From contig NC_092579.1 in the NCBI RefSeq assembly GCF_037975245.1, positions 11,578,678-11,642,677 of the forward strand: a stretch of 64,000 nucleotides of DNA. The letters are read 5' to 3'. The translations under genes were made by a program, and so were the position numbers. The notes under the pieces are model-generated. The model was given only the letters and a program-made list of their open reading frames with translations, did not search any database and was not told the origin of the DNA. The stretch comes from Apostichopus japonicus (Eukaryota; Echinodermata; Holothuroidea; Aspidochirotida; Stichopodidae). Below are positions 54,001 to 58,697 of the stretch, in pieces. The first letter of the stretch is position 1. Each line of letters begins with the position of its first letter.

Positions 54001-57000
54001 ATTTTGACCCGAGTATTTTTTGGCTCTCATGCAGTGGTAAGATACTGGTCTTAAGTGTAAAGCATCACAGCATGAAAGCAATCCTGAAAATAGGCCTCCA
54101 GATTTATTGGTGCCATGTTTCCAATCCTAGTTTTGTAAATTAATCCTACTTTATCTCAAAGACTGTCAAAGCTCTTACGGTTTTATGTAACTTATGGATT
54201 TGCATTTGTGTTTACCCATGTTATTTATGTTACATGACAGCACAGAATCATACAGTGTAATGTTACTAATCATTATAAATTAAATAGTTTTCTGTGGTCG
54301 AACTGACAAAATGACAACGTTTAAAAAACCCAACGAGAATGTTTGTTTATCATTATAAATGACTGTACCATTCCTGAAGGTGTTGATCTGTAATTAGACA
54401 CATTGCATTAGCATCGTCCACAGAGGGTACAAAGAGAAGCATTTGACATTTTTGAGAATCAAGACAGACCTGTTCTCTCCTGATTAAATCAGTTCTGTAT
54501 TTGTCCCTTCCGTTACTGTAACTTGTCATTCAGCCTCTGAAGAAGATCCAGCTAGGATCGAAACGTCAAGCCAACTTACTTTTACACATTCTCCTACACA
54601 GGCTCTCAAGTGGATAAGCAGTTTGCTAACAGTTTTATTTTATTTTAGTTTTGTTTTATGTTAAATTAGTTCTGGTATATTTTACATATTTTGTGCAACA
54701 TTATTTACACAGTCAGAAATAATTATGAAAGTTTACATTTGAATTCCATTTACGTCATATTTACTTGTTTCTTTGCAGGAAATCATGTACCTCACAATAT
54801 CCTCCAAGTCGGTGTGCAGTAACAGCAAACTCAAGAAAATTTTTGAGGTACGTTCACCGATTGGTACTCAAATTTCTTTGCAGTTGGGAACTGCATTTAA
54901 TAGGTTATCGGAAAAAGTGACATCTACAACTTGGAAGTAGGTTTAGGACTGCTGGATGTTGTAATCTGTCAGATCCCAGGAGCAGGTATTGTGCACACTG
55001 GTCTTCTCTACCAAACACTCGTATTAAACGATTTTGTGCGAGCTAGGGTTCTTCTTACAAGGGACAGTGTTTGCAATAAGGAAATGTTATGCTTCATAAA
55101 TGCACACAAGGATGACAGAGGTTTCCAGGACCAGGGGGCCACTTTTAAGGTGAAGATTCTCAGACATTCCTGTGGAACCTGGGGACACTCGACTGTAACC
55201 ACGGGCCATTTCACATTTTTCTAATTTATCATGTATAGTCCTTCATGTACTTTAAGTATCATATCATCATTTTTACCTCTATTTTTGCTTTGAAAAGTAG
55301 TTGTGTTCAAGGGTGGTTTATTGGATGGGTACGGCTCACTGAGTTTTAAAACAAAACTCCTGTCATATTTTATCATTAATCTACGCGGGTTGTTTACCAA
55401 TAACCTCTCTCACAGGAATCATTCAAAGAATTTCTTTTCATTTTCTGAGATGAAACTTTTAATGGTAATGTGTTCAATTTTAATTATCAAGGTCTTTGAT
55501 AGTATCAACTTTTTATGACTTTTTGTTTATTTTTTCTCAGCTTATTCTTGCATTTGGGAACTACATGAACAGCAGCCGTAGAGGATCTGCTTACGGATTT
55601 AGATTAGACTCCTTGGAAAGGGTGAGCAATACAATACTCAAGTAGCTGTTAGGATACTACAATAAGAAACCATTCAAAATTATGCTTGCAATTTTTCATT
55701 TTTTTATATTATTGTAAAACAAGTTGGTATTAATGGAAACATATGTATATATCTTTCTTGAAATATTTTACCAAAAAAAATTCTCAAATTTAGTCATTTA
55801 AAAATAATGCTTGGATTTTTTTTTTTAAATTATTGTAAAACAAGTTGATATTAATGGAAGCATATGTATAATACCTGTCTTGAAATATTTATGCCCAAAA
55901 TTCTCAAATTTAGTCATTCAAAAATTCGACCTACTCTTACTCGAAGTCATGTTTTTTTTTTCTTTTTTCTTTCTTCTTCTCTCAACAGTTGACATTTGTT
56001 AAATCCACCAATAGGGATCTGACATTTGTCCACTATTTGGTGGCTACCGTTGCTAGGTGCTATCCTGAATGTAAAGATTGGTACTCCGACCTGAAGATTG
56101 ACAACGTTCGTACCAGTAAGTAGCCTTCAGTATAAGTCACAGGTATTATGTAGGAGAGCTCACTTCCATGTCTTATAATATGCTAGAGAATAAATGAAAG
56201 GCAAGGCCGAAAACTTTTTCCAGTTCCAAGCGAGCTGCGGTCTCTCTGATATTACGAAAAACTTGGCATCAACTTCAGTCCTGGGAGTCCTACAAGCAAG
56301 GAACTGTGTACAAAGGCCTTTTTGATTGTGTTATAGCTAGCTGTATTCTCATTTAAAGTGAACTTTCATTATCAAATTGCAGTTCCTGGAATGTTTATGT
56401 TTATTAGGAAAGCATGAGTCATTCTCCCTCGCTCTGAATTAATAGTGAGACCGTTGAAGTAATTCAGCTGTCGGGCTGAATTTTTCAAGATTGAAGTTTA
56501 GTATTAGAAAGAGAAACTTCTGTCCAGCATCCACCAGACTTCTCTTCTAGTGTATTCCAGAAAATTTAGGCCATGTAAAATCTTTATTCATAATTTCCAT
56601 AATTACAGCATCATCTTTGTTAACTTGGAATTTTGTTCAATGTCAACAATTGTATGAAAGTAGACTGTGTGTTTACTTTTCCATTCCTTCCTTTTGGCCT
56701 ACATATCCACCCCCTCCCTATCCATCCCCCTCCCTCCCCCTCCCTATCCATCCCCCTCCCTATCCACCCTCTCCCTCTTCCTATCCATCCCCTTCTGTTG
56801 TAGAGCTTATGTAATGCATAAACATCTCTACCTTTTGTACGTTCTAGCATCAATGGATTCTTTGATGATGGATATACAAGGATTACGAAAGGGTCTAGAG
56901 TTGGCCAAGAGTGAGAGAGACAGGCAACCGGACAACACAATCATAGGAATATCCTTATATATGACATGTATGACATGTATGAAAAAGGAACCAAGTTGCT

Positions 57001-58697: not shown

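Follow-up and report, generated by a model that had tools for sequence, protein, structure and literature searches.

A probable U12-dependent AT-AC intron within the FH2 of an FMNL-related, MWHF-like formin of Apostichopus japonicus

The introns removed by the minor spliceosome are recognizable by their signals: U12-type donors follow the consensus RTATCCTTT and their branch sites the consensus TTCCTTRAC. Among the formins, the name diaphanous-related is borne by DIAPH1-3. One paper states that 100% of diaphanous-related formin genes contain minor introns (PMC6865273), and another names DIAPH2 as a minor-intron gene (PMC7612377), so minor introns in formins as such are not new. Minor introns are described as avoiding phase 0, which accounts for 22% of them on average, and intron sliding as at most very rare (PMC10639083). 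Only one gain of a minor intron is said to have been described before PMC6865273 proposed 55 candidates. Animal formins are divided into nine subtypes, one of which, MWHF, is close to FMNL and has at times been mistaken for it (PMC5047451). The same paper characterizes MWHF by an F in the second aromatic position of the lasso, an N-terminus of the DID-DD type and the lack of DAD and WH2, and reports that chordates have lost it and that molluscs, annelids, echinoderms and sponges possess it. None of the literature matches listed, a body of text with subscription papers mostly outside its scope, describes an AT-AC intron in FMNL or MWHF, and no published MWHF gene structure was found in the literature searched.

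The window, by which we mean the whole 64-kb stretch of DNA analysed (C19:11578678-11642677), contains a formin gene on its + strand. We modelled the FH1-FH2 part of this gene as ten exons (49713-58697) in one frame, giving a protein that ends at a TAG. The first is an FH1/lasso exon at 49713-49864, between an AG acceptor and a GT donor, whose lasso aromatics are W then F (NW ... TVFK). Six FH2 exons with GT-AG flanks follow at 50443-50614, 51578-51774, 53195-53281, 54779-54847, 55541-55621 (the GNYMN exon) and 55989-56115. The FH2 continues through 56848-56948, which closes on ..DNTIIG, and 57259-57423, which ends CAA/GTAAGT; the last modelled exon, 58338-58697, holds the stop and a tail without a Pfam match. 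Eight of the nine introns are GT-AG and only the one at 56949-57258 is AT-AC. Once joined, the exons encode a whole FH2 (Pfam PF02181, 270.3 bits, residues 28-383), and the best match of the protein among solved structures is Formin-like protein 3 (FMNL3, 4eah) at 224.4 bits. A probable upstream exon with FH3/DID similarity lies on the same strand at 36442-36558 (CAG/ ... /GTGAGT), its link to neighbouring exons being putative. The window holds repeats as well. One at 52631-53176 ends just 5' of the exon at 53195, and a tRNA-like match at 59009-59072 (Rfam RF00005, 33.4 bits), perhaps a tRNA-derived SINE, lies 3' of the gene. A long tandem repeat at 29781-30647 has open frames on either strand that encode a repeating peptide (VGASLIN..IVMLGF..AAKLGLV); it is not obviously a gene.

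The AT-AC intron is 310 nt long, on the + strand and in phase 0. The exon before it ends ...ATA GGA, the intron runs on from 56949 as ATATCCTTAT, with ATATCCTTATA as its opening letters and CCCTCAC as its closing ones, and the exon after it opens GAA TTT TCA AGA CAA. Its 5' splice site, ATATCCTTA at 56949-56957, has 8/9 of the U12 consensus with C at both +5 and +6. The branch site TTCCTTAAC at 57236-57244 is a 9/9 match, and its branch A at 57243 lies 15 nt from the CAC that ends the intron at 57258, the acceptor being the AC at 57257-57258. The coordinates and letters originally given for the donor, the branch site and the CAC acceptor agree with the sequence exactly. In the nine-intron model the other eight introns reach only 3-5/9 for a U12 donor and 5-7/9 for their best branch site. 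Donor, branch site, spacing and AC acceptor are those of the known class of U12-type AT-AC introns, and as in that class there is one minor intron among many major ones, with the cognate snRNA loci in the genome. Its phase sets it somewhat apart, since phase 0 is the rarer one for minor introns, but it is otherwise typical.

We believe that the FH2 of this formin, which we class as MWHF-type (FMNL-related), is very probably interrupted at 56949-57258 by a U12-dependent AT-AC intron. The original prediction of a U12-type AT-AC intron within a formin FH2 is in this respect well supported. The motifs, the reading frame, the FH2 homology and the four minor snRNA loci are observed; the splice itself and the use of the minor spliceosome are inferred.

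It is important to realize how little the motifs would prove by themselves. The + strand of the window contains four exact donors (RTATCCTT), where 200 dinucleotide shuffles average 3.35. It has two exact branch sites (TTCCTTRAC) against a shuffle mean of 0.8, and two pairs of donor and branch site with acceptor against 0.12; the - strand has five exact donors, no branch site and no pair. At least one pair is present in 20 of the 200 shuffles. The second real pair, 31207/32194 (31207-32221), stands around a TA microsatellite with no adjoining exon seen by eye and is probably a chance match. We therefore reject motif counts as proof of the intron. What makes 56949-57258 convincing is that its donor and branch site coincide with the boundary between two FH2 exons. 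From the motif counts the rates come to about 5e-5 per position for the donor and 1e-5 for the branch site, and even with 70 nt of slack for the one and 30 nt for the other our arithmetic puts the joint chance at about 1e-6 per junction.

The rival that survives best is a GT-AG intron removed by the major spliceosome, at 56968-57274 or 56977-57274, which would replace EFSRQA by ISLYMTS or a longer piece. Enumeration gave 67 donor-acceptor pairs that leave the frame open: 27 AT-AC, 21 AT-AG, 14 GT-AG and 5 GC-AG. The original prediction held that the AT-AC splice alone restores the FH2 alignment and the phase, and this was too strong, as the GT donors 56968, 56977 and 56995 all keep the frame when joined to the AG at 57274. 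With the first of these the protein stays open and grows by one residue, EFSRQA giving way to ISLYMTS, and the second lengthens it by four. The narrower arguments of the prediction are borne out by the enumeration: GT 56911, 56968 and 56977 are out of frame with the TCAAG acceptor (57269), and pairing these donors with other AGs costs EFSRQ.

Two of the three homology measures leave this rival close to the AT-AC form. On a two-sequence profile (FMNL3 and DAAM1) the AT-AC form scores 245.9, ninth of the 67, where the top pair has 249.8 and the GT-AG forms 246.4 (56977, the best of them) and 245.0 (56968). With FMNL3 as phmmer query the AT-AC form comes first by 1.5 bits (221.7 vs 220.2). Joined-protein homology as sole proof is thus rejected, because eight of the 67 open pairs outscore the AT-AC form on the profile. 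Pfam FH2 separates them better. Compared over a 287-aa part with four of the 14 GT-AG forms that stay open, the AT-AC form has 222.0 and these have 214.5 (56977), 212.2 (56968), 211.9 (56995) and 201.9 (56911), all with 57274. The margin over the first three is 7.5-10.1 bits, the two leading rival introns losing 7.5 (56977) and 9.8 (56968). This preference reflects the retention of EFSRQ; the piece EFSRQAS keeps the F found in FMNL3 (NF), DAAM1 (QF) and DIAPH1 (KF). Protein similarity says more about the acceptor side than about the donor, since an AT-AC form using donor 56961, which puts four further residues ahead of EFSRQ, reaches 222.8. From the in-frame TAA at 57241-57243 to the AG at 57268-57269 the sequence contains no other AG, and therefore coding EFS needs a non-AG acceptor. 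Once such an acceptor is required, the donor is set by the U12 motif.

The splice signals of the GT-AG rival are weak. Its donors have G at +5, but as CAT/GTATGA they score 0.5 on a consensus matrix, a level that 8% of the 3961 + strand GTs reach. The modelled donor 51775 scores only -0.04 on the same matrix, so a low donor score would not be enough to dismiss the rival. Its AG at 57274 has 8/16 pyrimidines with another AG 5 nt earlier, whereas all ten acceptors of the model, among them the AC, have 10-15/16 and no near AG. The rival also leaves the U12 motifs unexplained, and we consider it improbable.

Much less probable again is an intron with AT-AC termini that the major spliceosome nevertheless removes. 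Such U2-type AT-AC introns occur in sodium-channel genes, and the text of PMC2831892 gives all of them G at +5. The intron at 56949-57258 has C at +5 and again at +6, and its U12 branch site is a 9/9 match besides. That the AT-AC ends are an artefact of an assembly error or a pseudogene is scarcely credible: the base calls are known here from the assembly alone, but all ten exons are open with consistent phases, the other eight introns are GT-AG, and an error would have to create U12 signals at both ends of the intron.

A U12-dependent intron calls for the minor-spliceosome snRNAs, and the presence of U11, U12 and U4atac genes, put forward originally as a check, is confirmed. Searches for snRNAs and formins covered 671.6 Mb in 35 contigs. 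With the best 40-49 candidates scored per search, at least one locus above the Rfam cut-off was found for each of U11 (C14, 88.7 bits), U12 (C17, 115.9 bits), U4atac (C14, 72.2 bits) and additionally U6atac (C21, 104.2 bits); 14 control genomes, which are unlikely to be animals, gave 0 matches. Positions 16-25 of the U12 locus, GAGTAAGGAA, are complementary to the branch site with one A left over. The segment GTAAGGAA of this locus thus pairs with 57236-57244 around one unpaired A, and a calculated pairing this strong is reached by 0.6% of 4000 random 9-mers from the window. For the AT-AC donor, the calculated pairing with U11 is equalled by 24% of random 11-mers and that with U6atac by 11%; two ordinary donors, 56116 (for U11) and 54848 (for U6atac), pair equally well or better. 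We do not use the pairing energies as general support; only the pairing of U12 with the branch site stood out.

The original prediction took the gene for an FMNL, and FMNL3 is indeed its best solved-structure match, but the window FH2 is 35.3% identical to FMNL3, near the 34.0% between FMNL3 and DAAM1. Another locus of the genome, F6 on C18, matches FMNL3 at 52% identity, with 130.5 bits across 132 aa. F6 is the FMNL orthologue of this genome, and F1 on C8 its DAAM. An unrooted tree of five sequences, with no MWHF reference among them, joins FMNL3 to F6 (0.989) and DAAM1 to F1 (1.000) and places the window gene apart; the F6 and F1 rows were aligned by their own references (FMNL3 and DAAM1), which somewhat favours those pairings. 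Since F6 is the FMNL and the window gene falls apart from it in the tree, we reject FMNL membership for the window gene.

The best-supported label is MWHF, set by the description of the subtype and not proven. The window gene shares with that description an FMNL-like FH2, a W-then-F lasso, a weakly FH3/DID-like piece upstream and a Pfam-less tail (PMC5047451), the likeness being judged against the description and not against an MWHF sequence. The F that is the second aromatic in NW...TVFK is a trait common to MWHF and FMNL. As to the G-DID-DD N-terminus of the subtype, the joined upstream piece matches Drf_FH3 at 27.4 bits against a cut-off of 27, a weak match from one piece, and among solved structures it finds FMNL1/2 at E 0.05-0.07 only. 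Neither a DAD nor a WH2 has a Pfam match in the C-terminal tail at E<=1, a search that short motifs can escape.

The other formins of the genome allow the same site to be compared. There are at least nine other FH2 loci by our grouping of 25 matches (F9 comes from one match), and the comparison covers six of the nine (F1, F2, F3, F5, F6 and F7). The position of the AT-AC intron is read through without an intron in F6 (FMNL, STILRDFLLNN), F1 (DAAM, SVMGDFKTVSS) and F5 (VVSEFIEDT). The orthologous U12 intron that the original prediction proposed to check for in FMNL genes is therefore absent from the genome's own FMNL. In F2 and F7, which we take to be INF-like, a GT-AG intron in phase 0 follows four codons after that position by hand count. 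The F7 region (L041/L042, about C14:27425596-27427074, - strand) also contains a LINE-like element, a long open frame whose reverse-transcriptase-like sequence, with YADD, was judged by eye.

The remaining locus, F3 on C14, is the closest parallel. All six of its solved-structure matches are DIAPH1, and its AT-AC intron, 1599 nt long and in phase 0, occupies C14:16502099-16503697 on the - strand (L034/L035). The junction reads ...DRFKEVMS / ATATCCTTTA ... GACCTTGACAGAAATGTTCAC / KFVKIAKDEF, with a CAC end, a 9/9 donor and a branch site, GACCTTGAC, that was picked by eye and scores 7/9. A restricted scan gave 21 frame-keeping GT-AG options for F3, which delete at least 7 residues or insert about 15 or more; they were weighed by residue change, not Pfam score. 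A relaxed motif scan of the nine paralogue regions found pairs in two of them. In F3 the scan picked the correct donor, but its acceptor (13358) lay beyond the exon and was wrong; the true acceptor and the branch site came from reading the exon. In F1 (DAAM) it gave two wide motif pairs. The F3 intron agrees with the minor introns of DIAPH genes (PMC6865273; PMC7612377), which are likewise in formins, and like the window intron it is AT-AC and in phase 0. Both lie in the same FH2 segment, but the F3 intron comes seven codons later than the window intron, by hand count over a gap-free aligned stretch.

The window intron is a further instance of U12-type AT-AC introns, in a superfamily already known for minor introns. 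A lineage-specific gain is possible because the site is intron-free in FMNL and DAAM, the subtypes closest to it, and offset from that of DIAPH. The simplest count favours a gain on the MWHF branch, but the intron may instead be older and lost in the other subtypes, or may have slid by 21 nt. We hold only tentatively, as something rather doubtful, that the MWHF lineage gained its own minor intron or that DIAPH and MWHF share an ancestral FH2 minor intron whose place shifted by exactly seven codons between them. Gains of minor introns are regarded as rare, as is sliding. Outside the animals, viral contigs held no relatives, and none of four pattern matches in prokaryotic genome contigs was confirmed; these being viral and prokaryotic collections, that null says nothing about animals.

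If our reading is right, U11 and then U6atac would read the donor ATATCCTT, U12 would pair with the branch site TTCCTTAAC leaving the branch A bulged, and the minor spliceosome would join GGA to GAA in phase 0. A retained intron would reach the in-frame TAA at 57012-57014 (+ strand), inside the FH2, and for this reason the output of the formin should depend on minor splicing, through which we infer that it may be regulated. There is also a warning for annotation, since a gene finder limited to GT-AG could pick 56968-57274 and drop EFSRQA. MWHF lies outside the human minor-intron catalogues because it is reported lost in chordates. A formin subtype with that history would now join the formins that probably need the minor spliceosome. 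Two neighbouring, non-identical AT-AC minor introns in paralogous FH2s would make a compact test case for gain, loss and sliding.
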